Assembly: GCA_017443345.1 (NCBI GenBank)
Contig: JAFSNR010000142.1
Span: forward strand, 1 to 44,458
Reading direction: 5' to 3'
Length of the DNA stretch: 44,458 nt
Origin: Prevotella sp.
Lineage (GTDB): Bacteria > Bacteroidota > Bacteroidia > Bacteroidales > Bacteroidaceae
A model generated the notes under the pieces. It was not told where the DNA came from, ran no database searches, and saw only the letters and a program-made list of their open reading frames with translations. The position numbers and the translations under genes were made by a program. Position 1 is the first letter of the stretch. Each line of letters opens with the position of its first letter. Positions 8,902 through 37,490 of this stretch are shown one piece after another.

Positions 8902-8955
8902 ATCTATAAACTTTAAACTCTAAACCGTAATCTGTAAACTGTAAACCGTAAACTA
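8902..8955 (-). repeat. Stop-to-start heptad linker, tonB to polyprenyl synthase
   Basis: On the minus strand the tonB stop TAG is followed by seven 7-base words (TTTACGG, TTTACAG, TTTACAG, ATTACGG, TTTAGAG, TTTAAAG, TTTATAG), then AT and the ATG of the next gene. There is no other sequence in the spacer (51 = 7x7+2). The last 14 bases, AGTTTATAGATATG, recur at 23815-23828 and before queF. Confidence 0.92.
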
Positions 8956-9642
8956 CATATTAAACACAATCGGAATGCAGACTTTCGTCCTGCACGGTTT
9001 GGCATTCATCACGCCAGCCTGCCACTTGGGCATCATACGGAGCACACGCAGTACCTCACGGTCGCAGGCGGCATCGAGATGCTCCACTAGCTCAAGGTCG
9101 GACACGCTGCCATCGGTATTGACGATAAACTGTGCCACCACCTTACCCTTCACCTTCTGGTGCTGGGAAGTGGCTGGATACTTCAGATTCTTCGTAAGCC
9201 ACTTCATGAACTCGGCAGCGCCACCAGGGAATTGAGGCAGATCCTCGACCACACGGAAGTCCACAGGCTCGTCGTACATATCGACCACCTCGGGCTTCTC
9301 CTCCTCCGCCAGCTTCTCGGGCTCCTCCACTTCCTGAGGCACCAAGGCTTCAGGCGGTAGTTCCACCTCATTCTCCACCAAATGGAGTTCTTCGCTCTGC
9401 TTCTTCTCCACCTTTTGCTCCTGAGGCAGCATCATGGGTATCTGATCAGGTTCGCGCTTCAGCGGCGAGAGTTCCATCTCGGCATCGAGGTCGTCGTCAT
9501 CGTCAAAGAATGTCCAGCTACTTTCACTGCTGTTCCACTCCAAAGCCACGAAACAGGCCGCGAGCACCACAATCAGTCCCAGAAGGAACCCCTGCACACG
9601 CCGCTGCTCCAAATCTGCCTCACGACTCTTCTTGACTTCCAT
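8953..9642 (-). CDS. tonB: TonB-family energy transducer
   Basis: 229 residues. A short basic cytoplasmic segment EVKKSREADLEQRR (typical of Bacteroidota TonB) precedes one membrane helix at about residues 19-35. A long Glu/Pro-rich spacer spans the periplasm (about 60-125), and the C-terminal domain has the family pattern LPQFPGGAAEFMKWL, NLKYP, GKVVAQFIV and a final VCIPIVFNM. TonB carries proton-motive energy to SusC-type receptors. It is the first gene of the minus-strand run that ends in the exbB-exbD cluster, so the complete energising system is in the window. The stop codon TAG is the first three bases of a heptad array. Confidence 0.94.
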   Translation of the reverse strand: MEVKKSREADLEQRRVQGFLLGLIVVLAACFVALEWNSSESSWTFFDDDDDLDAEMELSPLKREPDQIPMMLPQEQKVEKKQSEELHLVENEVELPPEALVPQEVEEPEKLAEEEKPEVVDMYDEPVDFRVVEDLPQFPGGAAEFMKWLTKNLKYPATSQHQKVKGKVVAQFIVNTDGSVSDLELVEHLDAACDREVLRVLRMMPKWQAGVMNAKPCRTKVCIPIVFNM

Positions 9643-9689
9643 ACTATAATAAAAACGCTTTTTTGACGTTATTTACTTATAAGTGAGCA

Positions 9690-9697
9690 CAAAGGTA
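9690..9697 (-). promoter_or_regulatory. TAnnTTTG promoter element for tonB
   Basis: TACCTTTG on the minus strand, 48 bases upstream of the tonB ATG, matches the Bacteroidota -7 consensus. Confidence 0.72.
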
Positions 9698-9710
9698 CAA
9701 AAAATATAAA

Positions 9711-9740
9711 AGGTAAAAGAGTAAAAAGGTAAAAAGGTCA
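9711..9740. repeat. Short GTAAAAAG 8-base array
   Basis: Approximate 8-base words (GTAAAAGA, GTAAAAAG, GTAAAAAG, GTCAATAA) fill the gap between the divergent tonB and porQ promoters. Confidence 0.55.
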
Positions 9741-9760
9741 ATAAATTAAGAATTATTTCG

Positions 9761-9768
9761 TAATTTTG
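9761..9768 (+). promoter_or_regulatory. TAnnTTTG promoter element for porQ-cmk
   Basis: TAATTTTG lies 17 bases before the chosen porQ ATG, giving a very short leader. It matches the Bacteroidota -7 consensus. Confidence 0.65.
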
Positions 9769-9785
9769 CGCCGAATTTGGAAAAA

Positions 9786-10793
9786 ATGGGAAGGGAAAAG
9801 AATAAAAACGTTTCTAACGATTGTCAACAGGGGGCATCAGTCATGTCCCTTCTGTTCCTTTTATCTTCCCTTTTTCTTCCTTTTAACTTCCTTTCCATTT
9901 CCGCCCAAGAGAGCCAAACAGCCTACAACTTCCTGAGGCTGCCTGTCAGTGCACACGTGGCTGCCGTGGGAGGCGACAACATCACCCTCACGGACGACGA
10001 TGCCACCCTCATCTTCCACAATCCTGCCCTCATCAACGGCGTGAGTGACAAAACCATCAACCTGAACTTCATGACCTACATGCAGGGAGCCAAGACGGCC
10101 AGTGCTGCTTTCGTGAAAGGTGCAGGCGATCGTGCCACATGGGGCGTGACTGCCCAGTACATGGATTACGGTACGATGAAGCAGACCACCAGCAACAATG
10201 AGGACCTAGGCACCTTCTCTGCCCGTGACATCGCAGTGGGAGGAACGTTTGCATATGCACTCACCAACAGCCTCAGCGGTGGTATCACTGCGAAATTCAT
10301 TTCCTCGCATATCGCAGGTTACAACTCCATGGCCGTAGGCGTAGACCTCGGACTGAACTATTACGACGAAGAGCGCTACTGGAGTCTCTCTGCCGTCGCC
10401 CGTAACCTGGGAGGACAAGTAAAGGCTTACGATGACGAGTTCGAACGAATCCCCCTCGACTTGCAGGTGGGCATCAGTAAACGTCTGATGGCTGCTCCTC
10501 TTCGCTTCCATGTCACACTGAGTCGACTGACGGAGTGGGATCAGGGCATAGGACGTCACTTCGCCATCGGTGCCGACCTGTTGCTGGGGCAGAGCATCTA
10601 CCTCGCGGCAGGCTATAACTTCCGCAGGGCATCCGAGATGAAGATCAGCGACTCGGATGGCTCCTCAGCCCACGGTGCAGGCTTGTCGCTAGGAGCCGGA
10701 CTACAACTGGAGCGATTCAAGCTCCATATCGGCTACGGCAAGTATCATGTCAGTGCCTCATCAATATTGATTAACATATCATACGCATTATGA
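9786..10793 (+). CDS. porQ: Type IX secretion system protein PorQ
   Basis: About 335 residues. After a basic N-terminus comes a hydrophobic signal peptide ending near ISAQES; the mature protein starts with [21 protein letters not shown], which is characteristic of PorQ/PorV beta-barrels (shown in part), followed by an outer-membrane barrel of the FadL/PorV type with NPAL near residue 80 and a terminal hydrophobic strand. PorQ is an accessory outer-membrane protein of the type IX secretion system, whose substrates carry C-terminal sorting domains; none is in this window. The ATG at 9786 is preferred over a TTG at 9777; an ATG at 9843 would leave an uncharged signal peptide. The stop overlaps the cmk start by 4 bases. 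Confidence 0.85.
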
Positions 10794-11479
10794 AAAAAAT
10801 AACGATTGCCATCGATGGTCACAGTTCGTGCGGAAAGAGCACGATGGCCAAGGATCTGGCCCGCGAAGTGGGCTACGTCTATGTCGACACGGGTGCGATG
10901 TACCGCAGTGTCACCCTCTATGCCCTGCGCAAGGGTCTGTTCAACGATGACGGTAGCGTGCGCGAGGCAGAGCTCCAGGCGGAAATGCCCAATATCCGCA
11001 TCAGCTTTAAGTTCAATGCCGAGACTGGGCGCCCTGACACCTACCTCAACGATGAGTGCGTGGAGCAGGAGATCCGCTCACTCGAAGTATCTAACCACGT
11101 CAGTCCTGTTGCTGCCATCGCCTTTGTGCGTGCAGCCATGGTGGCTCAGCAGCAACAGATGGGTAAGGACAAGGGGGTGGTCATGGACGGACGCGACATT
11201 GGCACCACCGTCTTCCCTGATGCCGAACTGAAGATCTTCGTCACTGCCTCAGCACAAGTACGCGCCCAGCGCCGCTTCGACGAGCTCAAGGCCAAGGGTA
11301 TGCCTGCCGATTTCGACGATATCCTGAAAAACGTTGAGGAGCGCGACTATATCGACTCCCACCGTGAGGTGTCACCCCTGCGTAAGGCTGATGACGCCAT
11401 CGAGCTCGATAACTCGCACATGACCATCGCTGAGCAGAAGCAATGGCTGCTGGAACGCTTCAAAGAGCGTACAGCGTAA
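10790..11479 (+). CDS. cmk: Cytidylate kinase
   Basis: 229 residues, the normal bacterial length. It has the P-loop GHSSCGKS (residues 10-17), the CMP-binding region [16 protein letters not shown], the segment [19 protein letters not shown], and the lid region RAQRRFDEL. It phosphorylates CMP and dCMP to the diphosphates. The ATG overlaps the porQ stop (ATGA). Pairing with porQ is a usual Bacteroidota arrangement, where ispH often follows on the same strand; here a FadL gene intervenes and ispH is on the other strand. Confidence 0.97.
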
Positions 11480-11541
11480 AGAATTTTGTTCCGTTTACGT
11501 GATTTTCTCGTCATTTTTTCGGTTTTCTGCAGTTTTATTAC

Positions 11542-11549
11542 TACCTTTG
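11542..11549 (+). promoter_or_regulatory. TAnnTTTG promoter element for the FadL-type gene
   Basis: TACCTTTG lies 27 bases upstream of the ATG at 11577 and matches the Bacteroidota -7 consensus. Confidence 0.75.
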
Positions 11550-11576
11550 CACCCTGAAACTGTTAGAATCGAATAA

Positions 11577-13031
11577 ATGATGAGAAAATTATTATTTTCA
11601 GCGCTCTGCGCCATGACTTTCGCCACCACCGTCCAGGCTGGTGGACTGATGACCAACACGAACTATCACATCGCCTTCGACCGCATGTTTGCACGAGGTG
11701 CCACTACAGAAATCGATGCTGCCTACAGCAACCCCGCTGGTCTCGCATGGGGCCACGAAGGTTTTCAACTCTCTCTTAACTTCCAGAAGCCCTGGCAGAA
11801 CCGTGATATCGAAACGACCATTCCCAACTTTCTGGCTAATCCACAACTGGGGTATAATGGCTACGATATCAACCAGAAGTTCAATGGCAAGGCCTCTGCC
11901 CCCATTGTGCCCGCATTTTTTGCATCGTATAAAAGGGATAAGTGGGTATTCTCTACGATGATCGGTATCGTCGGTAGTGGTGGCTTCGTCAAGTATGAAG
12001 AGGGTATTCCCATGTTCAATGTGATGACAATGGGCAAGATCTATGAGAAGTCTGTCGCTGCCTACATGGCCAATCCCCAGAGCCCTATCATCACCCCAGA
12101 GATGTATGCCATTAACTCAGAAGTAAAGGGTAAGCAGTATATCTACGGCGGACAGATCAATATCACCCGCAAGATCGGCGACTATTTCTCAGCAGCCATC
12201 GGACTGCGTGCTAACTACTACGACGGCTACAACCGTGGCTACGTCAATGCCACCACTCATCAGCAGTTAGGTGGTCAGCAGCTGATGGATCTGCAGCTCG
12301 ACGTCACCCAGCGCGCATGGGGTTTTGCACCTATTGTCAGCTTCGACTACCACCAAGGTCCCCTCACCATCGCAGCCCGTTATGAGTTCCGTGCGAAGAT
12401 CAACACGAAAAACGATACCAAGGCTCTGAGTGTTTCGATGATGGGACAGACGACTGACATCAAGGCGATGGCAGAGCAGATGGGCAATGAAGCCACACTG
12501 AAGGCACTGGCTACAGCGATGGGCGACCAGATGGCAGACAAGATCAAGAACTACATGCCCGATGAGCACGTGCGTTATGATATGCCCTCACTCTTCGTCG
12601 TAGCAGCAGGTTATGAGTTTACTCCGAAACTGCGTGCAGCCCTGGAGTATCACTTTTTTGACGACAAACACGCCATGATGGCCGATGACCGTCAGAAGAC
12701 CTTGGATCACGGCACACACGAGATCCTCGCAGGTATTGAGTATGATATCAATGACAAATTCACTATCAGCTGCGGTGGACAGCGTACCGACTATGGAATT
12801 ACCGATGAGTATCAGCAGAACACCTCTTTCGCCTGCGACAGCTATTCTGTAGGCCTTGGTGGTGCGTGGAACATCAACAAGAAAATGCGCCTCAACTTCA
12901 GCTATTTCTGCTCACTCTATAGCGACTATAAGCACAACCAGAAGAACTATCTCGGTACCCCCTACCCTGGTCAGGATATCTACAGCCGCACAAACCATGT
13001 GATCGGCGTCGGTCTCGACTACAAGTTCTGA
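11577..13031 (+). CDS. OmpP1/FadL-family outer membrane transport protein
   Basis: 484 residues. A signal peptide ends near TTVQAGG (about residue 22). The mature N-terminus GGLMTNTNYHIAFDRMFARGA, described here by its ends, leads into the FadL-type hatch region with AAYSNPAGLAW, and the rest alternates as beta strands to a terminal VGLDYKF. FadL-type barrels take up hydrophobic compounds such as long-chain fatty acids; the ligand here is unknown. It has its own promoter. Its last 13 bases overlap the 3' end of the convergent ispH gene. Two ATGs in a row begin the gene; either could be used. Confidence 0.92.
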   Translation: MMRKLLFSALCAMTFATTVQAGGLMTNTNYHIAFDRMFARGATTEIDAAYSNPAGLAWGHEGFQLSLNFQKPWQNRDIETTIPNFLANPQLGYNGYDINQKFNGKASAPIVPAFFASYKRDKWVFSTMIGIVGSGGFVKYEEGIPMFNVMTMGKIYEKSVAAYMANPQSPIITPEMYAINSEVKGKQYIYGGQINITRKIGDYFSAAIGLRANYYDGYNRGYVNATTHQQLGGQQLMDLQLDVTQRAWGFAPIVSFDYHQGPLTIAARYEFRAKINTKNDTKALSVSMMGQTTDIKAMAEQMGNEATLKALATAMGDQMADKIKNYMPDEHVRYDMPSLFVVAAGYEFTPKLRAALEYHFFDDKHAMMADDRQKTLDHGTHEILAGIEYDINDKFTISCGGQRTDYGITDEYQQNTSFACDSYSVGLGGAWNINKKMRLNFSYFCSLYSDYKHNQKNYLGTPYPGQDIYSRTNHVIGVGLDYKF

Positions 13032-13903
13032 ATGGCCTCGCTGCATTGTTCCATAAGCCAGCGGGGGGTGGAGGTGGCACCGCAGATGCCGACAGTCTGG
13101 ATGCCTTCGAGCCACTCTTTCTGGATCTCCTGAGGATCCTCGACGAGGTGGGTATTGGGGTTCACGCGCAGACACTCGTTGAAAAGCACCTTACCATTCG
13201 AGCTCTTGCGGCCACAGACGAAGAGGATAAGATCGTGCTTCGTAGCGAATTGCGAGATATTAGGCATACGATTGGCTACAGAGCGACAAATGGTATCAAA
13301 GCTCTTGAACGTGGCATCGGGGGCGATGTGCGACTGGATATAGTCGATGATGCGGTGGAACTCGTCGAGCGACTTCGTAGTCTGCGAATAGAGGTAGATG
13401 TCGCGCGAGAAGTCGAGACGCGTGACCTCATCGAAATTCTCGATGACAATCGCCTTTGATTCGGTCTGTCCCACCAGTCCTAACACCTCTGCATGACCTT
13501 TTTTGCCGAAGATGACAATTTGAGGACTGTTCTCACTCCACGCTCCACACTCTTCACTCCTCGATTCATCGTACTGCTTCTTGATGCGCTTCTGGAGCTG
13601 AAGCACCACAGGGCAGGTGGCGTCGATAATCTCGATGTTGTTACGACGGGCGAGTTCATAAGTCTCGGGGGGCTCACCATGGGCGCGCAGCAGCACCTTC
13701 ACATCGTGGAGCTCGCGCATCTCATCATGATTGATGGTGATGAGTCCCATCTCGCGCAGACGGTCGCACTCCATGCCATTGTGTACGATATCACCCAGAC
13801 AGTAGAGGGGGCGTCCCTGCGCCAGCTCTTCCTCGGCTTTCTTAATGGCGGTGGTCACTCCAAAACAGAAACCACTGCCTTCATCGATCTCGATTTGAAT
13901 CAT
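13019..13903 (-). CDS. ispH: 4-hydroxy-3-methylbut-2-enyl diphosphate reductase
   Basis: 294 residues. IspH makes isopentenyl and dimethylallyl diphosphate in the last step of the MEP pathway, using an iron-sulfur cluster. The three cluster cysteines are visible in GFCFGV (Cys13), IDATCPVV (Cys97) and SFDTICRS (near residue 190). The conserved AHGEP and KKGHAEV motifs are present. Residues about 113-126 (ESRSEECGAWSENS) form an insert encoded by 7-base words, an unusual feature; it lies on a surface stretch between Cys97 and GKKGHAE. It starts 8 bases after the meaB stop, as the last gene of this unit, and overlaps the convergent FadL-type gene by 13 bases. Confidence 0.96.
   Translation of the reverse strand: MIQIEIDEGSGFCFGVTTAIKKAEEELAQGRPLYCLGDIVHNGMECDRLREMGLITINHDEMRELHDVKVLLRAHGEPPETYELARRNNIEIIDATCPVVLQLQKRIKKQYDESRSEECGAWSENSPQIVIFGKKGHAEVLGLVGQTESKAIVIENFDEVTRLDFSRDIYLYSQTTKSLDEFHRIIDYIQSHIAPDATFKSFDTICRSVANRMPNISQFATKHDLILFVCGRKSSNGKVLFNECLRVNPNTHLVEDPQEIQKEWLEGIQTVGICGATSTPRWLMEQCSEAIQNL
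13528..13563 (-). repeat. 7-base word array inside ispH
   Basis: On the coding strand AGTGAAG, AGTGTGG, AGCGTGG and AGTGAGA follow one another at exact 7-base spacing, in frame, encoding residues about 113-126 of IspH. Confidence 0.8.
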
Positions 13904-13911
13904 CTAAACAA

Positions 13912-15012
13912 TCAACTTTTTAATAACGTAAAATATTCATCGAGTAGATCCTGGGCGGCAACGAAACTCGTCTTATGCCCTTCGAGGACAGTGCGCTCTG
14001 CAGCGGAGAGTTGCGCCTTGATGGCGGGGTTGTTGTAGAAGTTAAGCCGCAGGTGCTCGTTAATACTCTCGTACATCCAATATTTCGACTGTTCGTTGCG
14101 ACGGTAGTCGAAGTAGCCGTTGGCTTTCACGAAGTCGATATACTGGTAAATCATATCCCACACCTCCTTCACGCCAGTGCCGTAGAAACCGCTGTAGCAG
14201 AGCACCTTCGGTGTCCATCCGCTCTCGGGCATGGGGAAGAAGTGGAGGGCATTGCGGAAGTTCGTGGCGGCCATCTGACAACGGTCGACATTATCGCCAT
14301 CGCACTTGTTGATAACAATACCATCACTAATCTCCATAATACCACGTTTAATACCCTGCAATTCGTCGCCTGTACCTGCCACCTGAATAAGGAGGAAGAA
14401 GTCGACCATCGAGTGACAAGCTGTCTCGCTCTGTCCGACACCAACGGTCTCGACGAAGATCTTGTCAAAGCCTGCGGCCTCACAAAGAATGATGGTCTCA
14501 CGCGTCTTACGGGCCACACCTCCCAGAGAGCCTGCGGAAGGACTAGGACGGATGAAGGAGTCAGGATGCTGAGCGAGCTTCTCCATACGAGTCTTGTCAC
14601 CAAGGATAGAGCCCTTCGTACGTTCACTGGAGGGGTCGATGGCGAGGACGGCCAACCGTCCCCCCTTCTCACGGAGCACATGGACGCCGAACTCATCAAT
14701 AGAGGTGGACTTGCCTGCACCTGGCACACCACTAATGCCCACGCGCACAGAGTTACCGCTATAGGGCAGACACTTGTTAATCACTTCCTGTGCACGAGCC
14801 TGATGATCAGGATTGACACTCTCGATGAGGGTCACGGCCTGCGAGAGCACGGTGACATCGCCCTTGAGGATGCCTTCAACCATCTCGCCTGCCGTGAGCT
14901 CACGACGACGAAAACGGCTGCGCTTCATATAGGGGTTGATGATGGAAGGTTGTTCCACGCCACTGTTCACCTGTAGTCCTGCATATTCTGAGCTATTCTC
15001 GGGATGTTCCAT
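13912..15012 (-). CDS. meaB: Methylmalonyl-CoA mutase-associated GTPase MeaB
   Basis: 366 residues. It has the G3E-type P-loop GISGVPGAGKS (92-102), the AIDPSSERTKGSILGD segment, the switch region ETVGVGQSE and the nucleotide-specificity motif VINKCDGD. MeaB guards methylmalonyl-CoA mutase and gates loading of its B12 cofactor, which fits the succinate-propionate metabolism of Prevotella and Bacteroides. The mutase genes are not in this window. The ATG forms the end of a short heptad linker that starts at the stop codon of the upstream DUF1573 gene. Confidence 0.96.
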   Translation of the reverse strand: MEHPENSSEYAGLQVNSGVEQPSIINPYMKRSRFRRRELTAGEMVEGILKGDVTVLSQAVTLIESVNPDHQARAQEVINKCLPYSGNSVRVGISGVPGAGKSTSIDEFGVHVLREKGGRLAVLAIDPSSERTKGSILGDKTRMEKLAQHPDSFIRPSPSAGSLGGVARKTRETIILCEAAGFDKIFVETVGVGQSETACHSMVDFFLLIQVAGTGDELQGIKRGIMEISDGIVINKCDGDNVDRCQMAATNFRNALHFFPMPESGWTPKVLCYSGFYGTGVKEVWDMIYQYIDFVKANGYFDYRRNEQSKYWMYESINEHLRLNFYNNPAIKAQLSAAERTVLEGHKTSFVAAQDLLDEYFTLLKS

Positions 15013-15032
15013 AAACCGTAAACTGTAAACTA
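15010..15032 (-). repeat. Stop-to-start heptad linker, DUF1573 to meaB
   Basis: On the minus strand: TAG (stop), TTTACAG, TTTACGG, TTT, ATG (start). All 17 spacer bases belong to the 7-base words, and both the stop and the start complete words. Confidence 0.88.
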
Positions 15033-16085
15033 TTTATTAATATTAATAACCACCTTGGAGTGATCGGGGTCATTGGTAATCATGAGGATACGAGGACGTT
15101 TGCGCACCTTTTGGAGATCGGAGGCGATACCCGTGATCTTCAGTGTGGTGGTCTGTCCCGGATCGATCTCACGCGATTTAAGGGTTAGCTTCAGACCGCT
15201 GGTAAACATCTGCAGCGATGAGATGACGAGCGGAGAGTGACCCGTGTTCGTCAACGTCACTTCGACCGTCTTCTTCGATTTATTGTCAAAATTGGTAAAG
15301 TCGATGTCCGTCGAGGAGATCTGTAACTGTGGTGCCTGATCCTTGTTCACATTGGCGAAAGCCGAGAGATCGGGCAGGAGAATAGCTGAGACTGGCACCT
15401 CGATATCGGCATTGACCTTATCACCCAGATGCTTGCCCAGATAGACATTGGTCTGCGTCAGTCCATAGTCGCGCAACTTCTCAGAATGGAGGGTGACTGT
15501 AATGGTGGCTCCATGTCCTGGCGAGATGGTCTCGGGCACAACCTGAGCCGTCAGATATGGTGGCAGGTGCATCAGGTTGGGCTGCATCACGTCAGAGCCA
15601 TTGTTATAGACATGGATCTCCTGAATGATTTCATCACCTTTGTTCACATCGTCAAACTCGAGTTCATTCTTATCGAGCAACATGGTACCCATCGACAACG
15701 GATAGTTGCCTGCATAGTCGAGCACCTCAGCGAGTACCACACCCTTCATCGTCAGGTAGAGGGGCTGCTCGGAGGCATTGCTCTTGATGGCTGCCATCTT
15801 GTGGAAATGGCCAAGCTGACGAGCATCATAGGTCATCTTGATGGTAAACTTATCGCCTGCGCCCACCTCCTTGGGGAAGTCTACGGCCGTACAGCCGCAA
15901 TCGGTCCTGACGCTCTCGATCAGGAGTCGGCGTTTGCCTTTGTTCTGGAGTTCATACGTAGCGGTAACGGGCTGTTCATAGCCTACACGTCCGCAGTCGA
16001 TCGTAGTGTTGGTGACAACGATGCGCTGAGCCGATGCAGGGAGCATCATCAGCGCCATCAGGGGTGTTATAATCAGTCGTTTCAT
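15030..16085 (-). CDS. DUF1573 domain protein (periplasmic, immunoglobulin-like)
   Basis: 351 residues with a signal peptide ending near PASAQ (about residue 19). The segment IDCGRVGYEQPVTATYELQNKG and the following RTDCGCTAVDFP are described here by their cores, CGRVGYEQP and DCGCTAVDFP, which are hallmarks of DUF1573. At least two further similar domains follow (FDDVNKGDEIIQEIHVYNNG region near 140; TDIDFTNFDNKSKKTVEVTLTNTG region near 250). Such ASH-like folds are common in secreted Bacteroidota proteins, and no enzyme activity is known. The start overlaps the stop of the upstream macroglobulin-like gene by 4 bases, so the two products are probably made together and act in the same compartment. 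Confidence 0.9.
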   Translation of the reverse strand: MKRLIITPLMALMMLPASAQRIVVTNTTIDCGRVGYEQPVTATYELQNKGKRRLLIESVRTDCGCTAVDFPKEVGAGDKFTIKMTYDARQLGHFHKMAAIKSNASEQPLYLTMKGVVLAEVLDYAGNYPLSMGTMLLDKNELEFDDVNKGDEIIQEIHVYNNGSDVMQPNLMHLPPYLTAQVVPETISPGHGATITVTLHSEKLRDYGLTQTNVYLGKHLGDKVNADIEVPVSAILLPDLSAFANVNKDQAPQLQISSTDIDFTNFDNKSKKTVEVTLTNTGHSPLVISSLQMFTSGLKLTLKSREIDPGQTTTLKITGIASDLQKVRKRPRILMITNDPDHSKVVININK

Positions 16086-21586: not shown

Positions 21587-21616
21587 TTTTTACCCACTTA
21601 AATGGTTTTTACTATG

Positions 21617-21624
21617 CAAAGGTA
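21617..21624 (-). promoter_or_regulatory. TAnnTTTG promoter element for the macroglobulin-like gene
   Basis: TACCTTTG on the minus strand, 31 bases upstream of the ATG at 21586, in the 95-base divergent spacer. Confidence 0.78.
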
Positions 21625-21644
21625 GTATTTTTTCTTGAAAAACC

Positions 21645-21676: not shown

Positions 21677-21681
21677 CATCC

Positions 21682-23772: not shown

Positions 23773-23828
23773 GGCTGAGAGTTGAAAGTTGAAAGTTGAG
23801 AGTTTAAAGTTTATAGTTTATAGATATG
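23770..23828 (+). repeat. Stop-to-start heptad linker, acyl-CoA synthetase to cellobiose phosphorylase
   Basis: TAG (stop) is followed by GGCTGAG, AGTTGAA, AGTTGAA, AGTTGAG, AGTTTAA, AGTTTAT, AGTTTAT, then AGAT and ATG: 53 = 7x7+4 bases with no unrelated sequence. The last 14 bases AGTTTATAGATATG match those before the polyprenyl synthase and queF genes. Confidence 0.93.
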
Positions 23829-26354
23829 GAACAACAAAAACGTTACGGTCATTTTGATGACCAGCATCGCGAGTATGTCATTACAGACCCGCAGACACCT
23901 TGGCCTTGGATTAACTATCTGGGCAACGAGGATTTCTTCTCACTGATTTCCAACACCGCTGGCGGCTACTCTTTCTACAAGGATGCCAAGTTCCGCCGCA
24001 TCACCCGCTATCGTTACAACAACGTACCGATGGACAATGGTGGTCGCTACTTCTACATCAAGGATGGCAACACCGTCTGGAATCCGGGATGGAAACCCTG
24101 TAAGACGCCGCTCGACTTCTACGAGTGCCGTCATGGTATGAGCTATACGCGCATCACGGGGCGTAAGAACGGTGTAGAGGCCTCTGTACTCTTCTTCGTA
24201 CCCTTGAAAAAATGGTGCGAGGTACAGAAACTGACGCTGAAGAACGAATCTCAGGAGACTAAGACACTGAAACTCTTCTCGTTCGAGGAGTGGTGTCTCT
24301 GGAATGCCGCTACCGATATGGAGAACTTCCAACGCAACTTCTCAACGGGTGAGGTGGAAGTCGAGGTGCCGAATCTCGGCATCTCAACTTCGAACAATAG
24401 TTCGAAGATTGAGGGTAGCACCATCTACCACAAGACGGAGTATCGCGAGCGTCGTAACCACTACGCTTTCTATCATGTGAACGCTGAGATTCAGGGCTTT
24501 GATACCGACCGCGAGACCTTCGTTGGCCTCTACAACTCATTTGCCGATCCTCAGGCTGTCCTCGAGGGTAAGCCCCGCAACAGCCACGCCCATGGCTGGA
24601 GCCCCATCGCTTCTCACTACATCGAGGTCACCCTCGCTCCAGGCGAGTCGAAGGACTTCATCTTCCTCCTCGGCTATATCGAGAACGAGCAGGACGATAA
24701 GTGGGAGAGCCTCCAAGTCATCAACAAGAAGAAGGCTCATGCTCTTATCGCTGAGCTCGATACCACTGAGAAGGTCGACAAGGCCTTTGCAGAACTCTGC
24801 CAGCTCTGGGATGCTCTCCTTAATATATATAAGGTAAAGACAGGCAACGACAAACTCGACCGCATGGTCAATATCTGGAACCAGTACCAGTGTATGGTGA
24901 CGTTCAACTTCTCGCGAAGTGCCAGCTTCTTCGAGAGTGGCGTAGGTCGTGGCATGGGTTTCCGCGATTCGAATCAGGACCTCGTGGGCTTTGTTCATCA
25001 GATTCCCCCACGTGCACGTCAGCGCATCATCGACATCGCCTCGACGCAGTTCCCTGATGGTGGCTGCTATCACCAGTATCAGCCCCTCACCAAGCGCGGC
25101 AACAACGACATTGGTGGTGGATTCAATGATGACCCATGCTGGCTCATCTTTGGTACCGTAGCTTATATCAAGGAGACGGGCGACTTCTCGATTCTCGACG
25201 AGATGGTGCCCTTCGATAACCAGCCTGGCTCTGAGGTCACCCTGTTCGAGCACCTGAAGGTGTCGATGGATCATGTCATCAAGAACCTCGGTCCCCACAT
25301 GCTGCCACTCATCGGACGTGCCGACTGGAACGACTGTTTGAACCTCAACTGCTTCTCTTGGGATCCCAACGAGAGCTTCCAGACCACAGAGAACGTCTCT
25401 GAAGGCACCAAGGCAGAGTCGCTCATGATCGCAGGTCTCTTCGTGGTTACTGGCAAAGATTATGTAAATCTTTGCCGGAGGTTAGAGGTTAGAGCCACTA
25501 ACCCCTCACCACTAACCCCTGCATTCTTTGCTGCAGAAGCAGCAAGAATGCAGAAGGCTGTCGACGCTATGATAGAGGCTGTGAAGAAGCATGGCTGGGA
25601 TGGCGAGTGGTACCTCCGCGCCTACGACTTCTATGGTAACAAGATTGGTTCTAACGAGTGCGATGAAGCCAAGATCTTCATCGAGTCTCAGGGCTGGTGC
25701 ACCATGGCTGAGATTGGTGCTGAAGATGGTATGGTAGCCAAGTCGCTCGATTCTTGTAAGAAGTACCTCGAATGCGAACATGGTATGGTACTCAACAACC
25801 CTGCCTTCTCGAAATACATCTACGAATATGGTGAGATCTCCTCTTATCCCGAGGGCTACAAGGAGAACGCCGGTATCTTCTGCCACAACAATCCTTGGGT
25901 CATCATTGGAGAGTGTCTCGCAGGTCGCGGTAACGATGCCTGGAGCCATTACGCCAAGATCCTCCCATCATACGTTGAAGAGAAATACCAGACCCTCCAT
26001 AAGGTGGAGCCTTATGTGAACTGTCAGATGGTAGCTGGTAAGGACGCCTTCAAGCCTGGCGAGGGTAAGAACTCATGGCTCACAGGTACCGCCGCCTGGA
26101 TGTGGTACACTGTTTCTGAGTTCATCCTCGGTATCAAGCCTGACTATGATGGTATCCGTATCGATCCTTGTCTGCCTGAGACAGCTACTGACTATACCGT
26201 TCAGCGTAAGTTCCGTGATGCCGACTACGATATCACTATCCATCCGAACGGACAGCAGAAGGGAGTGAAGAAGATTGTCCTCGACGGACAGCCCATCGAA
26301 GGCACTGTCATCCCCTACTCTGCCGGCAAGCACACTGTAGAGGTGACAATGTAA
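23826..26354 (+). CDS. Cellobiose phosphorylase-like GH94 enzyme
   Basis: 842 residues. The N-terminus [17 protein letters not shown] and [15 protein letters not shown], followed by [20 protein letters not shown], are described here by fragments typical of GH94 cellobiose phosphorylases. The (alpha/alpha)6 domain carries [13 protein letters not shown] with the catalytic aspartate near residue 497, and the C-terminal part has [16 protein letters not shown]. The enzyme cleaves cellobiose with phosphate to glucose 1-phosphate and glucose, saving ATP. There is no signal peptide, so it acts in the cytoplasm. Residues about 550-570 ([20 protein letters not shown]) are a likely insert encoded by 7-base words between two hairpins; comparison with memory of the family suggests the loop is normally much shorter. 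Specificity for cellobiose over related disaccharides is likely, not certain. Confidence 0.92.
25452..25553 (+). repeat. In-frame insert of three successive inverted repeats with heptad words
   Basis: Hairpin 1: GGCAAAGATT/AATCTTTGCC (25452-25476, loop 5). Middle: GTTAGAG words followed by inverted ACTAACC words (25480-25520). Hairpin 2: CTGCATTCTTTGCTGC with GCAGCAAGAATGCAG (25519-25553, loop 4, one bulge). All lie inside the cellobiose phosphorylase frame. Confidence 0.82.
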
Positions 26355-26382
26355 GCACATAAAATCAATCACTCTATGATTC

Positions 26383-26427
26383 AAATGACGCGCCGACGCA
26401 CCTTAACGTCGACGCGTCATTTTTGTT
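26383..26427. terminator. Bidirectional terminator between convergent genes
   Basis: A 16-base arm AAATGACGCGCCGACG pairs with CGTCGACGCGTCATTT with one wobble; A- and T-rich flanks on both sides let it serve the phosphorylase gene (plus) and the antiporter gene (minus). Confidence 0.88.
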
Positions 26428-26430
26428 TGT

Positions 26431-28689: not shown

Positions 28690-28746
28690 AGTTTATTGGT
28701 TTTTGATTATATCTTAATTCTTAATTCTTCATTCTCAACTCCCCTA
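28690..28746 (-). repeat. Stop-to-start heptad linker, lptD to antiporter
   Basis: On the minus strand TAG (lptD stop) is followed by GGG and the words AGTTGAG, AATGAAG, AATTAAG, AATTAAG, ATATAAT; the last 16 or so bases before the ATG are diverged. Confidence 0.8.
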
Positions 28747-31602: not shown

Positions 31603-31628
31603 ACCTGCAAGTTTTACTATTGCGACTG

Positions 31629-31636
31629 CAAAATTA
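31629..31636 (-). promoter_or_regulatory. TAnnTTTG promoter element for lptD
   Basis: TAATTTTG on the minus strand, 27 bases upstream of the GTG start of lptD, matches the Bacteroidota -7 consensus. Confidence 0.68.
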
Positions 31637-31683
31637 CAACAAAATAGGGGAATTACAAAATTCCCCTCCTGTTTTTTTACTTT

Positions 31684-31797
31684 ATTTAGACATATTTGTC
31701 CTTATGTTCTTCTGTCTAAAATATGGTTATTCTGTTACTCTGTCTTAAAAAGGTTATTCTGTTACTCTGTCTTAATACGTTATTCTGTCTAATACTA
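31684..31797 (-). repeat. 8-base word array after the HD gene
   Basis: On the minus strand the HD-gene stop TAG is followed at once by words of the type TTAAGACAGAGTAAC and AGAATAACC, repeated three times with decay, and the block ends with an inverted pair TTTAGACA/TGTCTAAA (31684-31720). The words are the reverse complement of those at 39911-40060 relative to transcription. Confidence 0.88.
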
Positions 31798-32355: not shown

Positions 32356-32356
32356 A

Positions 32357-34138
32357 TCAGGCTTCGCGCTCTATCCAAGCAATGGTATCGCCCTGGCGGA
32401 TCTTCTGTCCTGGCTTCACAGTGATATCTACCAACTTGCCTCCGAGGGCAGCAGGGATCTCGACGATCTCACCCCACTTCGTCTGCAGATAGCAGAAGAT
32501 ATCGCCTTCCTTGTACTTCTGGCCAATGAATGGTTCGATGCAGGAAGCGGGAACACCCTCACCACCAAAGCTCCAGATGAGCTGACCATCCAATGGACTC
32601 TTCACGGCATCAGCCTTGGCATGCTTCAGGGCATCAATCTCCTCTTGAGAGATCTTCTGACCACCACCGAGCTTCGCATCCTTGGCCTTCTGGATATCAG
32701 CGAGGAGCTGTTTCTTGGCCTGACCGCTCTTGAAGGGACGGTACTGCTCGGGGTGCATAGCCAACTCGAAGAGTTCCTCATCGTCGGGACCATACTCCCA
32801 ACCGTTCTCATCCATCTCCTTGCGGAAGCCGTCGAGGGCATTCTCGAGGAGGGTGTGAGGATCAGCATCCGTAAACTTGAGATTTTTCTTCTCAGCCAGT
32901 TCGATGAGCTCAGGAGCGATGGTGCCAGGCACCTTACCACTCTTACCGAGAATCATACCCCAGATGGCGTCGTCCATCATCACGTAACGCCCCTTGCCCT
33001 GCTCCATCGTGAGGAGGTTCATCAGGGCGATGTTCTTCGTGTACTGTGAGAATGGGGTTACCAATGGGGGATAACCGACCTTTGGCCATACATATTCAAC
33101 CTCGTTGAAGAGCTTCACGAGCATATCATCCATCGTCAACGCGGATTCGCCCTTCTTCTCGCGCTCCTTGTTGATCATCTTCTGGATAGGACCAAGATCA
33201 GCCATCATCGAACCCATCATACCACCAGGCAGACCACTGCCAAGCAGCAGTGAAGACATGTGCTTATTGGCAGGATTGATGAAGTAGCCAAGCCAGTCGT
33301 CAATGAACTCCTGGGTCAGCGTACGAGCCTGCATATAGGCGTTCATATTCAGATCAGCCACCTCGAAGCCCTCGTTCTTCAGCATCGACTGTACAGAGAT
33401 GATATCTGGATGAACCTTTCCCCAAGACAACGGTTCGATGGCGGTATCAATCACATCAGCGCCATTGTTACATACCTCGAGGATAGAAGCCATCGAGAGA
33501 CCTGGGCCTGAGTGGCCATGATACTGTACGATGATATCGGGGTGCTTGGTCTTGATGGCCTTCGTCAGAGCTCCCAACATGGCGGGCTGTCCGATACCAG
33601 CCATATCCTTCAGACAGATTTCCTCAGCACCCGCAGCAATCACCTCTTCAGCAATCCTTGAGTAGTACTCAACGGTATGAACAGGTGAGGTGGTGATACA
33701 CAACGTAGCCTGTGGGGTCATGCCACCTTCCTTGGCCCACTTGATACTGGGGATGATATTACGCGTGTCGTTCAGGCCACAGAAGATACGGGTGATATCG
33801 ACACCCTGAGCATGCTTCACCTTATACATCAATGCGCGCACGTCGTCAGGCACAGGATACATACGGAGGGCGTTCAGACCACGATCGAGCATGTGGGTCT
33901 TGATACCTACCTCGTTAAAAGGCTTACAGAACGCACGGACAGCGAGGTTAGGGTTCTCACCAGCCATCAGGTTCACCTGCTCAAAGGCACCACCATTGGT
34001 TTCTACTCGGGCGAAACAGCCCATATCAATAATGGCAGGGGCAATGCGCTCCAACTGGTCCTTACGGGGTTGAAACTTGCCTGAAGACTGCCACATGTCT
34101 CTGTAAACGAGACTGAATTGGATTCTCTTTTTTGCCAT
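32357..34138 (-). CDS. Carboxyltransferase with C-terminal biotinyl-like domain (oxaloacetate decarboxylase alpha/PycB type)
   Basis: 593 residues. The N-terminal TIM barrel resembles the carboxyltransferase of oxaloacetate decarboxylase and pyruvate carboxylase: metal ligands are visible as Asp in SLVYRDMWQSSGK, the lysine in EICLKDMAG and two histidines in QYHGHSGPG. A conserved helical region follows (NEVEYVWPKVGYPPLVTPFSQ, shown in part). The C-terminal part from about residue 515 has a biotinyl fold (SPLDGQLIW, VKPGQKIRQGDTIAW), but the usual EAMKM attachment site is replaced by QTKWGE. The lysine is kept, so biotinylation remains possible. Partner subunits are not in the window, so the reaction is uncertain. 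Confidence 0.88.
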   Translation of the reverse strand: MAKKRIQFSLVYRDMWQSSGKFQPRKDQLERIAPAIIDMGCFARVETNGGAFEQVNLMAGENPNLAVRAFCKPFNEVGIKTHMLDRGLNALRMYPVPDDVRALMYKVKHAQGVDITRIFCGLNDTRNIIPSIKWAKEGGMTPQATLCITTSPVHTVEYYSRIAEEVIAAGAEEICLKDMAGIGQPAMLGALTKAIKTKHPDIIVQYHGHSGPGLSMASILEVCNNGADVIDTAIEPLSWGKVHPDIISVQSMLKNEGFEVADLNMNAYMQARTLTQEFIDDWLGYFINPANKHMSSLLLGSGLPGGMMGSMMADLGPIQKMINKEREKKGESALTMDDMLVKLFNEVEYVWPKVGYPPLVTPFSQYTKNIALMNLLTMEQGKGRYVMMDDAIWGMILGKSGKVPGTIAPELIELAEKKNLKFTDADPHTLLENALDGFRKEMDENGWEYGPDDEELFELAMHPEQYRPFKSGQAKKQLLADIQKAKDAKLGGGQKISQEEIDALKHAKADAVKSPLDGQLIWSFGGEGVPASCIEPFIGQKYKEGDIFCYLQTKWGEIVEIPAALGGKLVDITVKPGQKIRQGDTIAWIEREA

Positions 34139-34167
34139 ATTTTAGTCAACAATAGTAATATTGACTG

Positions 34168-34175
34168 CAAATATA
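34168..34175 (-). promoter_or_regulatory. TAnnTTTG promoter element for the carboxyltransferase gene
   Basis: TATATTTG on the minus strand, 30 bases upstream of the ATG, matches the Bacteroidota -7 consensus. Confidence 0.68.
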
Positions 34176-34239
34176 GCACTTTTTTTGCAAAGTCCTACAA
34201 AACAAAGAATCTTTTTTATATTTTTATCTTTTTTATGCA

Positions 34240-34500
34240 GGTTTATGTAGGGGGACGCCCCAACGTGTTCTAGCTGTTCATTCTCTGGCGCAGAGAATGA
34301 ACCAAGAGACATCCACCTATCCTAAATCCTTCCCTATATGGAAGGACTTAATTGATTCCGGGCAGAGACCGCCCTCCATCAAGGACTTCTTGTATGGCTC
34401 GCAGAGCCTGTGCCCCTTCGGGGGCGAGCCATGGTTCTTGACATCCCTGCTGTCGCCGCCCCTTGAAAAGGGGCTCAGGTAGAAATATCGAGGCATATAG
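34240..34500. repeat. Hairpin-rich non-coding block
   Basis: This is the first half of a 582-base stretch without a convincing gene. It holds successive inverted repeats: GTTCATTCTCT/AGAGAATGAAC (34276-34302, loop 5), CCTTCC/GGAAGG (34328-34345), GGGC/GCCC (34360-34374), ATGGCTCGC/GCGAGCCAT with an inner CCCC-TTC-GGGG (34394-34432), and GCCCCTT/AAGGGGC (34458-34474). Short overlapping minus-strand frames cross it but have no start context or recognisable domain. It looks like a dispersed structured repeat or an RNA rather than a protein gene. Confidence 0.7.
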
Positions 34501-34511
34501 GTAACTATAGA

Positions 34512-34715
34512 AAAATAAAGTAATCCGAAAAACATTCCGCACGAAGAGGTCTTTAGAGGATGTACTATTATCGGAATCTTCTTCGATTCTTGTATCGCAA
34601 AGCGAGACAAGCAAATCGACATGAAATGCTGTTTGAGCGAAGCGAGTTCATTGAATGATTCCGATAATCGGACATCCGGCCTCTGAGCCAGGACGTTTTC
34701 GGATTACTTTATTTT
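34512..34715. repeat. 204-base nested inverted-repeat element
   Basis: The ends are a perfect 20-base inverted repeat, AAAATAAAGTAATCCGAAAA at 34512-34531 and its reverse complement at 34696-34715. Inside is a second pair, ATTATCGGAATC (34567-34578) and GATTCCGATAAT (34657-34668), with GGATGT/ACATCC and CTTGTxTCGC/GCGAxACAAG pairs nested between. The ends resemble the terminal repeats of a small non-autonomous element, but no target duplication is obvious. It ends 5 bases before the queF stop codon. Confidence 0.8.
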
Positions 34716-34720
34716 CCTAA

Positions 34721-35179
34721 CTATTGGAATGAATGCCCCATCAGACGTTCTTGGGCCAATTGCTCATATTTGGTCCCAGGACGTCCATAGTTGGCATAGG
34801 GATAGATACTGATGCCACCTCGAGGGGTGAAGATACCGACAACCTCAATGTATTTAGGATCCATGAGACGGACCAGATCCTTCATGATGATGTTAATACA
34901 GTCCTCATGAAAATCCCCATGGTTACGGAAAGAAAAGAGATAAAGCTTCAAACTCTTCGACTCCACCATCTTTTCACCTGGAATATACATAATCTTGATC
35001 TCAGCGAAATCAGGCTGACCCGTAATCGGACAAAGCGACGTAAACTCGGGACAGTTGAACTGTACCCAATAGTCATTCTCAGGATGTTTGTTCTGGAACG
35101 TCTCCAATACCTCAGGAGCATAATCCATCTTATATTCTGTCTTCCGTCCCAATGCCTGCAAACCCTCTTGTTCTCTCAT
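34721..35179 (-). CDS. queF: NADPH-dependent 7-cyano-7-deazaguanine reductase (preQ0 reductase)
   Basis: 152 residues, the short unimodular QueF type. The nucleophilic Cys50 lies in [13 protein letters not shown] with the proton donor Asp57, and the family motif ESKSLKLYL is at 73-81. QueF reduces preQ0 to preQ1 on the path to queuosine in tRNA. It lies downstream of the queuosine-precursor transporter yhhQ, with a 102-base heptad array as spacer. The ATG is preceded by AGTTTATAGAT, as in two unrelated genes of this window. No ribosome binding site of the AGGAGG type is seen. Confidence 0.97.
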
Positions 35180-35284
35180 ATCTATAAACTCTAAACTATA
35201 AACTCAAATCTCTAACCACTAACCCCTAACCACTAACCCCTAACCACTAACCACTAACCCCTAACCACTAACCCCTAACCACTA
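35180..35284 (-). repeat. Stop-to-start heptad linker, yhhQ to queF (14 words)
   Basis: On the minus strand the yhhQ stop TAG is followed by ten words of the form TGGTTAG or GGGTTAG, then AGATTTG, AGTTTAT, AGTTTAG, AGTTTAT, AGAT and ATG: 102 = 14x7+4 bases with no unrelated sequence. The word type changes once, within the array. Confidence 0.95.
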
Positions 35285-35977
35285 TATATCCTTCACCTTA
35301 AATACATTATAATTCATGTCCAAATCAAACACATCCTCATGGTCGTGCGCCTTCGTGAAAGCTACCACACGGATGGTGACAGGGAGTACGACAATCTCAT
35401 ACAGCGTCTTCAGAGTGACCTGTGTGATCACCAATGAAGGCATCTCCTCCCAGGGAATAACACCTCCCAAAGCCAGAGGGAAGAAGATGATAGAGTCTGT
35501 GAGCTCACCAAAAACCGTACTCAGTACAGCTCGTTTGGAGAAATTGCGACCTGCTGACGAGAGTTTCATACGACTCATCACATAAGCATTCATAAACGAT
35601 CCGCAGAGGAAGGCCAGGAACGAGGCACCTGCGATACGTGGAGCCAGTCCGAAGATCTGATGGAAGCCCTCTTCACCATCCCAATAGGAGGCACCTGGGA
35701 TCCAGTCAGCCACAGCCCCGAAGAACACGAAGAGGAAGTTCATCGCAAATCCCATCCAGATGAGCAGACGGGTACGACCATACCCCCACACCTCACACAC
35801 CACATCGTTGATGATGTAACTGACGGGGAACACGATCAGTCCTGCCGTCATGTTCGCAGGACCAAAGGAGATCTGTTTGGTCTCCAATACGTTTGCCGTA
35901 ATCAGGCAGACGCAGAACAGTATGCCGTAGAACATAAACAGCACACTGATTTTCTGATTGTCTTTTGTTTTTTCCAT
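35282..35977 (-). CDS. yhhQ: Queuosine precursor transporter (YhhQ/DUF165 family)
   Basis: 231 residues with about six membrane helices. Characteristic segments are TANVLETKQISFG, the conserved VFPVSYIINDVVCEVWGYGRTR shown by its core SYIINDVVCEVWG, and FGELTDSIIFFPLA. The family imports preQ0, preQ1 or queuine for tRNA modification. It is preceded by a preQ1-I riboswitch ending 3 bases before the ATG, and followed by queF, so the pair forms a small salvage and synthesis unit. The stop TAG begins a heptad array. Confidence 0.95.
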   Translation of the reverse strand: MEKTKDNQKISVLFMFYGILFCVCLITANVLETKQISFGPANMTAGLIVFPVSYIINDVVCEVWGYGRTRLLIWMGFAMNFLFVFFGAVADWIPGASYWDGEEGFHQIFGLAPRIAGASFLAFLCGSFMNAYVMSRMKLSSAGRNFSKRAVLSTVFGELTDSIIFFPLALGGVIPWEEMPSLVITQVTLKTLYEIVVLPVTIRVVAFTKAHDHEDVFDLDMNYNVFKVKDI

Positions 35978-35980
35978 TGT

Positions 35981-36015
35981 CTTGTTTTGTTAAAGGGGGT
36001 ATTCATCGACCCCTG
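35981..36015 (-). promoter_or_regulatory. preQ1-I riboswitch upstream of yhhQ
   Basis: On the minus strand stem P1 is AGGGG pairing with CCCCT, with loop TCGATGAATA followed by an extra C at the position of the ligand-reading cytosine, then the A-rich tail TTTAACAAAACAAG. The tail AACAAAACAAG, the stem and the loop start TCG match the well-known Thermoanaerobacter tengcongensis preQ1-I aptamer almost base for base. The tail ends 3 bases before the yhhQ ATG, so ligand binding should hide the start region and block translation. It begins 6 bases after the antiporter stop codon. Confidence 0.9.
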
Positions 36016-36021
36016 TGTTTT

Positions 36022-37011
36022 TTATAAGAGGTAGAGCAACCAGGCCATATAACCCAGGAACCCAAGGATGAGGACAAAGCCCTCGCGCCTGGAGACGGAG
36101 AACTTCGTGAAAGCGAAAAGCCAGAGCAGACCCACACTGACGAGCATCATCATCAAGTCAACGATGGTAATACCCATGATGCGCAAGGGCTGAACAACGG
36201 CCGTAGCACCCAAAATCAGCAGAATATTGAACACATTCGAGCCAATGACATTGCCCAGTGCCAAAGCCGAGCGACCTTTATAGGCAGCAACCACACTCGT
36301 AGCCAATTCTGGCAGAGAGGTACCACCGGCCACGATGGTCAGTCCGATGATACTCTGACGAATCCCAAAGCGATGGGCGATATACGAGGCGGCATCGACA
36401 AAGAGATGACTGCCAATAATCAGACAGGCCAGTCCCAGCACGATAAAACTCAAGTGACGCCACATGTGGGAGAAGTCTCTCGGTTCCACCTCTTCCTCTA
36501 CACCCAGCACTTCCTCATGCTTGGGCAACAGTCCGTCCTTACGGGCCATCTGGAAGGTATAGAGCATAAAGGCCGCAAAACCGATAAGCAGGATGATACC
36601 ATCACTACGACTGATCTCATTACCCCAGAGGTGGGGGGAGTCCATATCGTCGAAACAGAGCATGAACAGCAACAGCGAGGCACCCACTGCGAAGGGGATA
36701 TCCTTACGCACTGTCGACCACGACACCTTGATAGGAGCCACCACTGCTGAACAGCCCACAATAAGCATGACATTGAAGATATTCGACCCGATGACGTTTC
36801 CCACTGCCAGATCAGCTGTGCCCTTCAAGGCTGATGTCAGACTGACAAAGAGTTCTGGAGCGGATGTACCCGCAGCCACGATGGTCAGACCAATGATAAT
36901 CTCAGGCACACGCATGTCGCGAGCCAACTGAGAAGCGGCCCCTGTCAGACGGTCAGCTCCCCAAAGCACCAGGGCAACACCCACAATGATGTATACAATA
37001 TTCAGCAGCAT
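36022..37011 (-). CDS. Calcium/sodium antiporter (CaCA family, YrbG-like)
   Basis: 329 residues with ten likely membrane helices in two inverted halves. Each half carries the alpha-repeat: GTSAPELFVSLTSALKG with NVIGSNIFNVMLIVG, and GGTSLPELATSVVAAYKG with NVIGSNVFNILLILG. The acidic residues of GTSxPEL bind the cation. The protein exchanges Ca2+ for Na+ or H+ across the inner membrane. A cytoplasmic loop (about residues 165-185, rich in Glu) separates the halves. It lies between the S4 gene (21 bases upstream) and the riboswitch-yhhQ pair, on the same strand. Confidence 0.95.
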   Translation of the reverse strand: MLLNIVYIIVGVALVLWGADRLTGAASQLARDMRVPEIIIGLTIVAAGTSAPELFVSLTSALKGTADLAVGNVIGSNIFNVMLIVGCSAVVAPIKVSWSTVRKDIPFAVGASLLLFMLCFDDMDSPHLWGNEISRSDGIILLIGFAAFMLYTFQMARKDGLLPKHEEVLGVEEEVEPRDFSHMWRHLSFIVLGLACLIIGSHLFVDAASYIAHRFGIRQSIIGLTIVAGGTSLPELATSVVAAYKGRSALALGNVIGSNVFNILLILGATAVVQPLRIMGITIVDLMMMLVSVGLLWLFAFTKFSVSRREGFVLILGFLGYMAWLLYLL

Positions 37012-37031
37012 ATCTTAAACCTTATTACTTT

Positions 37032-37409
37032 TCACTCCTCATTTAGGAACGCGTCCATGGCACGACGGTCTTTCTTCGTAGGACGTCCTGTACCACGAGC
37101 ACGATCCACGAAACCGCTGATACGGTTCATCTCCAACAACTCGTACTGGTCTGCAGGCGTCACATTCTCATAGATCTCAGGCAGCAGCTTCGCCCCTACC
37201 CTCTGTTCAATAGTCTTCAGAATACGGAAGGAGTAGGTCACAGGCGGCTTACGTACTGAGACAGTCTCACCTACCTTCACATTGCGCGAAGGTTTCACGT
37301 TGACGCCGTCGATAGTGACACGACCATTCTTGATCGCATCCACAGCAATAGATCTCGTCTTGAAAATCCTCGCCGCCCACAGCCACTTATCAATCCTTGC
37401 CTCTTCCAT
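37032..37409 (-). CDS. S4-domain RNA-binding protein (Hsp15/HslR-like)
   Basis: 125 residues. The S4 RNA-binding motif is clear at the N-terminus: RIDKWLWAARIFKTRSIAVDAI, shown in part as DKWLWAARIFKTRS, then GRVTIDGVNVKPSRNVKVGE. The tail is basic and includes GRPTKKDRRAMD. Hsp15 homologues rescue stalled 50S subunits carrying peptidyl-tRNA, which fits its place next to pth. The ATG follows directly on a heptad array running from the pth stop. Confidence 0.94.
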   Translation of the reverse strand: MEEARIDKWLWAARIFKTRSIAVDAIKNGRVTIDGVNVKPSRNVKVGETVSVRKPPVTYSFRILKTIEQRVGAKLLPEIYENVTPADQYELLEMNRISGFVDRARGTGRPTKKDRRAMDAFLNEE

Positions 37410-37490
37410 CTCTAACCACTAACCACTAACCTCTAACCACTAACCACTAACCTCTAACCACTAACCACTAACCTCTAACCCCTAACCTCT
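37410..37490 (-). repeat. Heptad linker, pth to S4 gene, with 21-base higher order
   Basis: On the minus strand the words begin in the last pth codons (AGGTTAG, GGGTTAG, AGGTTAG), then TGGTTAG, TGGTTAG, AGGTTAG repeat as a 21-base unit through the spacer, ending AG and ATG. The 58-base spacer is 8x7+2 bases with no unrelated sequence. Confidence 0.95.

Follow-up and report, generated by a model that had tools for sequence, protein, structure and literature searches.

Why do several operon junctions of one Prevotella contig consist of little but tandem 7-base words? The window analysed here, the whole 44,458-nucleotide (nt) stretch of contig JAFSNR010000142.1 (assembly GCA_017443345.1), is contig C106 of a 4.16-Mb metagenome-assembled genome (MAG) in 204 contigs, labelled G000 below. 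A preliminary description of this DNA had reported spacers made wholly of heptads from stop codon to ATG and had suggested a replicating linker element, a slippage product or a device for translation. We lean slightly towards a reading in which these linkers are solo arms of small S23-type selfish elements, tolerated at stop-to-start junctions. In its full form the element would comprise a PF05635 gene, encoding an S23-type four-helix-bundle protein, between inverted arms whose short tandem repeats frequently have units of 7 or 8 bases, and would lie at the junction of two same-strand genes; its shorter relatives would consist of two arms with a non-coding core, or of a single arm.

The spacer arrays of the window, as read directly, are as follows:

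8902–8952 (51 nt), minus strand: heptad array of the GTTTA family, filling the TonB/polyprenyl synthase spacer
15013–15029 (17 nt), minus strand: short heptad array of the GTTTA family, filling the DUF1573/MeaB spacer
23773–23825 (53 nt), plus strand: heptad array of AGTTGAA and AGTTTAT, filling the acyl-CoA synthetase/GH94 spacer
28690–28743, minus strand: lptD/antiporter spacer (names from the preliminary description), only partly heptads, AATTAAG family
35180–35281 (102 nt), minus strand: heptad array of the GGTTAG and then the GTTTA family, filling the YhhQ/QueF spacer
37410–37490, minus strand: heptad array of the GGTTAG family, filling the Pth/S4 spacer at 37410–37467 (58 nt)

Each of the five filled spacers reads directly as heptads with 2–4 leftover bases, and all ten gene names of these pairs are backed by Pfam, the lptD/antiporter pair lying outside that check. 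The description of spacers made wholly of 7-base words thus holds for five of the six, the lptD spacer being only partly so, and needs amendment at pth, where the array starts not at the stop codon but 23 bases inside the gene, the pth TAG itself forming part of the repeat unit. In array-free relatives Pth ends FNKLGKK; the window copy, which is up to 97% identical to records from rumen Prevotella and Xylanibacter ruminicola, ends within the repeat. Three window arrays have a common end, AGTTTATAGAT, directly before the ATG. Self-match regions of the window (at least 80% over 35 bases) number four at lag 7 and one at lag 9, the remaining lags between 4 and 12 giving none, and Tandem Repeats Finder rows with a period of 7 or multiples of it lie on or near the named spacers (10 of 55).

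The same pattern extends over a larger sample of the genome, comprising 688,418 bases with the window included, the second part of which was drawn to some extent from contigs in which GGTTAG arrays had already been located. This sample contains 88 lag-7 arrays; lag 8 yields 26, and none of the remaining lags from 4 to 13 yields more than 11. The 7-base arrays are well in excess of chance. The first 20 contigs alone, taken blind and without the window (243,960 bases), hold 20 lag-7 and 5 lag-8 arrays; in the 400,000 bases added afterwards, some of them from hit-bearing contigs, the counts are 61 and 19. Because this sample and that of a second genome, G008 (199,811 bases with 67 lag-7 arrays), consist partly of contigs or regions chosen around hits, array densities in both are biased upwards.

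Gene calls, including starts, come from a simple custom open reading frame (ORF) script, by which 82 of the 88 lag-7 arrays were placed, the six at locus edges being set aside. Among the 64 intergenic arrays, 22 have both codons of a same-strand gene pair within 12 nt, as compared with a mean of 1.1 and a maximum of 5 in 1000 random placements. The claim that arrays touch both codons beyond chance, for which the preliminary description had named arrays lying equally often elsewhere as the refuting outcome, was checked in this way and stood. A start codon lies within 12 nt of 28 intergenic arrays and a stop codon within 12 nt of 40 (null mean 4.5 in each case), so that stops outnumber starts. 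The arrays thus show the head-to-tail excess of 7-base units over other periods, the mostly intergenic placement and the frequent proximity to starts that characterise bacterial heptanucleotide repeats. They are not confined to stop-to-start spacers as first supposed, since 18 of the 82 placed arrays lie in predicted genes, as do 25 of the 67 in G008. The 42 intergenic arrays of G008 lie near a stop in 16 cases (null mean 1.7), near a start in 9 (1.7) and near both in 2 (0.2).

The evidence that connects such arrays with S23 genes comes from G000 and its relatives. At positions 15936–16247 of contig C146 in G000, a PF05635 gene (124.9 bits, cut-off 33.8) lies inside inverted GGTTAG arms 434 bases apart, and the same GGTTAG-armed insertion is present in G025. 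The encoded protein is related to the solved structure 2gsc (XCC0516, Xanthomonas campestris) with an E value of 6.5e-23. A 64-base GGTTAG query matches 45 places in G000; 13 of the 45 listed places fall on this same 81-kb contig, more than on any other. Across the genus, 87 of 100 genomes have PF05635 matches. The best-scoring 30 S23 loci and two more of G000 (32 in all) were collected, of which 28 are long enough for an arm test in which the inverted repeat of the flanks has to outscore the best of 20 shuffles by 3 or more. Inverted arms occur at 23 of these 28 loci as against 1 of 137 other ORFs of the same loci; counted by distinct junction, 9 of 12 are armed. The arm units comprise GGTTAG heptads in G000 and G025, GGTGAG in G088, 8-mers in G008 and G034 (TTTAGTCG) and in G044 (AGTTGACA), and a 10-mer in G089. 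Moreover, the unit TCGTTTRGTCGTTTRG, which the S23 arms of both G008 and G034 contain, is found in 14 of the 100 genomes, with G008 (56) second and G034 (36) third in number.

The position of these elements matches that of the window linkers. Each of the 26 armed S23 loci that could be placed is flanked by two genes that share a strand, an arrangement shown by 57% of random genes, and 15 of these loci leave no more than 15 nt between either outer arm end and the adjacent gene. The same-strand gene junction is therefore the niche of both S23 elements and window linkers. One S23 junction, presumably sdhA/sdhB, is common to 13 species, and there the arms vary from species to species, yet the left and right arms of any one species correspond (mean score 17.8 versus 10.0, permutation p 1e-4). 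A further junction, which we take to be ychF/lgt, is occupied by an S23 element in G012 and by a solo heptad array in G044, but by neither of them in G045; the proteins encoded downstream are only 36–49% alike. The gene names at these junctions, like those of leuC/leuD, another same-strand pair that encloses an S23 gene, were read from the sequences rather than obtained by family search.

Inverted organisation also extends to arrays that enclose no S23 gene. Array pairs less than 150 bases apart in G000 are inverted in 10 of 10 cases, with the G-rich arm first and the C-rich arm second, and two of these pairs show weak likeness between arms; no sampled genome showed the opposite order, C-rich first. 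At least four loci of G000 have in common a core of roughly 22 bases, GATTACCTTGCAAGCCATTCTG, which is also present, accompanied by different heptads, in G018, G014, G083 and the MAG RUG571. Folding of the arm–core–arm unit gives a hairpin (z −7.6). No known RNA family was recognised, Rfam matches in six loci all falling under gathering scores. G-quadruplexes as a general cause were rejected by reasoning only, because the GTTTA family is without GG runs.

We infer that the solo arms descend from S23 elements, and S23 proteins may have some role in arm spread, for example in trans. At a junction the arm's own stops would end the upstream frame, and the array would leave the downstream ATG intact, so that the junction tolerates the arm; inside a gene, an arm would persist only where it can be read in frame. 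Since such repeats themselves contain stops, no dedicated mechanism is required to account for the precise fit at the stop codon. The replicating linker element of the preliminary description is close to this reading in substance, though not in its restriction to linkers, as arrays also lie inside genes.

The in-gene arrays translate in frame as LTPNPSPLT, LSPLTPHPSPLT or LSTLNSQLST. In-gene status itself required a predicted ORF, so an open frame is no evidence, and the argument is carried by alignments with up to 29 relatives for each array; the excess of GGTGAG in genes (24:20 versus 65:3) is likewise partly a result of the in-ORF criterion. In a MetH-like protein, in-frame array inserts are absent from most aligned relatives. 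An FAD oxidoreductase contains two in-frame inserts, inverted in DNA orientation around a native segment, which are also absent from most aligned relatives, are common to G025, G059 and G033, and are longer in G059. The names LigA, MetH, PrmA, RsgA and purF used for genes of this set are our own reading of the sequences rather than the result of a family search. The window holds one comparable feature:

25477–25520, no strand assigned: inverted pair of short GGTTAG arms within the GH94 gene, read in frame

Several observations weigh against the solo-arm reading. No S23 gene was found in a search of the window, and no inverted partner was found within 150 bases of its spacer arrays. Although GTTTA is a main family of G000, none of the S23 genes found in that genome has arms of this type, and G018 has 103 GTTTA matches with zero PF05635 matches in a 90%-complete MAG. 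Over the 100 genomes, GTTTA and PF05635 counts show a rank correlation of only 0.27. Because the S23 loci share junctions, they are not independent, the 28 being the best-scoring and 12 or 13 of them lying at one junction. Close array pairs in G008 are inverted in only 7 of 18 cases, and the subterminal motif that follows GGTTAG arrays is loose, an AGA start being present in 31 of 44 and the fuller motif in 19 of 44. What lies between the inverted arms in MetH and the FAD oxidoreductase is native protein sequence, a layout that simple arm–core–arm insertion leaves unexplained, and the array of a LigA-like protein stands in place of an equally long linker instead of forming an insert. Two stronger formulations were abandoned. 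Strict inverted pairing as a general rule is contradicted by the difference between G000 (10 of 10) and G008 (7 of 18), and S23 as a required factor is a weak proposition: among the 13 genomes without a PF05635 match, 9 lack GTTTA and 4 have 103, 5, 1 and 1 matches.

Orthologous junctions, among which some species are present twice, from two collections, bear on how the arrays arise. At pth-S4, 48 of 109 orthologous loci have overlapping genes and 23 have spacers of 0–5 nt (71 of 109 together); lag-7 arrays fill the window copy and four other loci, whose words are GGAATGA, AAAGGTG, AAAGTGAT and GTTGAATGAT. At yhhQ-queF, 23 of 35 loci overlap, one has a spacer of 0–5 nt and three have arrays of other words. 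As most orthologous junctions are array-free and others bear differing words, arrays come and go. The pth-S4 junction of a relative that is about 89% identical (L092) bears a different, palindromic repeat, CCCACCCCCAACCCCTCCCC ... GGGAGGGGGTGGG.

Turnover of this kind would be accommodated by plain polymerase slippage, in which heptads change by 7-base slips, survive where coding allows and so fill stop-to-start gaps. The predominance of lag 7 in array-rich genomes and the presence of different units at the same junction in different species agree with such a process, as does the GGAATGA unit of one locus (L059), which resembles that locus's own junction sequence; PMC4679880 and PMC4692102 also report the idea of a 7-base slip for bacterial heptanucleotide repeats. 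Slippage surely contributes to array length. As the entire explanation it is unlikely, because shared vocabularies, inverted pairs and concerted arms make slippage alone insufficient: unrelated loci of G000 use the same units (the 45 GGTTAG places, and 190 GTTTA triplet matches with 0 reversed), and inverted pairs, a core common to loci and species and left–right arm agreement would be unexpected. The preliminary description's device for translation, in which the array would be a leader that loads ribosomes or aids reinitiation where Shine-Dalgarno sites are few, fares worse and is highly improbable. It would agree with the 28 arrays that end within 12 nt of a downstream start, with the G-rich strand being the coding strand in 37 same-strand spacers of G000 and the other strand in 11, with the folding of the four longer window spacer RNAs, which is no better than that of shuffles (z +0.75 to +1.69), and with a like role suggested for TAACTGA repeats in PMC4679880. 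Yet stops are approached more often than starts, close relatives are array-free at the same junctions, with 71 of 109 pth-S4 and 24 of 35 yhhQ-queF junctions overlapping or at most 5 nt long, arrays also occur in genes and convergent spacers, and the orientation in same-strand spacers of G008 is 11 sense to 23 antisense, opposite to G000. A sense bias as a general rule accordingly failed in G008. Inside genes both genomes show the same trend, with the G-rich strand coding in 2 arrays and opposite in 16 in G000, and 6 sense to 19 antisense in G008.

Two further explanations concern the means of spread. The arm–core–arm units could be akin to miniature inverted-repeat transposable elements, moved by an unseen repeat-binding DNA transposase with S23 genes as passengers. 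The recurrence of the 22-base core at several G000 loci and, with different heptads, in other genomes and the hairpin fold of the unit are in keeping with this, but many transposases would be needed for arms so unlike in sequence and period, and we give the proposal little credence. More speculatively, and as an unlikely case, S23 proteins and arms may together form an RNA-level selfish element of operon junctions that places copies of its arms in further transcripts and rewrites the two arms of an element in concert, possibly via telomerase-like repeat-adding reverse transcription, the heptamers of Beggiatoaceae, Cyanobacteria and Xanthomonas being arms of the same kind. To our knowledge, heptanucleotide repeats are an odd excess class of bacterial simple repeats with no accepted cause. 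If they are indeed arms of S23 elements, the S23 family, of unknown function, and heptanucleotide repeats, of unknown origin, would explain each other, and operon junctions would harbour selfish DNA that goes unnoticed. X. campestris has both the solved S23 protein (2gsc, XCC0516) and published heptamers (PMC4692102).

The reading of the linkers as solo S23 arms draws together features that are known singly from other systems, and the statement that no description was known cannot be maintained, as heptamer arrays near start codons (PMC4679880) and convergent heptamer pairs (PMC4692102) have been published. In Beggiatoaceae, Cyanobacteria and a few Bacteroidetes, heptamer arrays lie just upstream of start codons (PMC4679880). 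The TAACTGA repeats of that report resemble the present arrays in being tandem, mostly intergenic and forward, placed just before starts and in some cases overlapping the end of the upstream gene; they differ in using a single fixed heptamer, as against many in Prevotella, and in that BOGUAY has one inverted repeat only, and the passages searched report no S23 link. The Xanthomonas GGGAATC repeats (PMC4692102) are likewise dispersed heptamers, mostly of about four units with many convergent pairs, but have a G-quadruplex sequence and lie nearer the upstream gene, with no S23 link in the sections covered. Closer to the proposed full element are the 23S rRNA intervening sequences, in which an S23-family ORF lies within inverted terminal repeats and which, in Coxiella burnetii, carry heptameric repeats before the S23 start codon in numbers that vary by strain (PMC4990558, as far as covered). 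Such intervening sequences occupy a helix of 23S rRNA and are excised by RNase III; the 26 placed Prevotella S23 loci instead lie between same-strand protein genes, with tandem-repeat arms of a unit that varies by species. A PF05635 gene within the element is present in the related elements of G000 and the genus and absent from the window linkers, and inverted repeats, which surround S23 genes at 23 of 28 loci, are present in the GH94 pair and absent within 150 bases of the window spacer arrays. Rickettsia palindromic elements (PMC10969869, in the portion covered) are also small palindromic repeats in frame within protein genes, and in-frame inserts absent from relatives occur here in MetH and the FAD oxidoreductase; those elements are about 150 bp long with conserved peptides, whereas the Prevotella arrays are tandem heptads mostly in spacers, with units that differ between loci and species rather than a single conserved palindrome family. 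Heptamers near starts, convergent heptamers, S23 intervening sequences and in-protein palindromes have thus been published separately, and no work joining them was found in searches of an open-access library. Nor was a description of tandem-repeat arms around S23 genes in operons found there, subscription papers being outside the search.

Arrays are unevenly distributed over the genus: the density of lag-7 arrays per 100 kb is 13.3 in G098 (from a 60-kb sample), 6.0 in G045, 1.0 in G016, 0.5 in G024 and 0 in G010. The GTTTA pattern, GTTTANNGTTTANNGTTTA, is present in 53 of 100 genus genomes, and G000 has 190 matches to it and 0 to the backward pattern. G047 has more matches to the backward control (38) than to the pattern itself (4) and may therefore possess a family built on a different unit.

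Two further heptad arrays, both of AAGTGAA type, lie elsewhere in the window:

7129–7156, plus strand: AAGTGAA heptad array directly upstream of the tRNA-Ser (gga) gene (7005–7093, minus strand)
44249–44277, no strand assigned: AAGTGAA-family heptad array close to the window end

In addition, the window contains a second repeat family, TACTCTGTCTTTAAAAAGA / GTTATTCTGTTACTCTGTC, with periods of 18–50 and in tandem at 31711–31795, 39910–40048, 40397–40509 and 44101–44203, as well as a 22-base tandem repeat, ATTTTCCAGTTAAGAGTTTTTG, present in four copies at 4809–4896.

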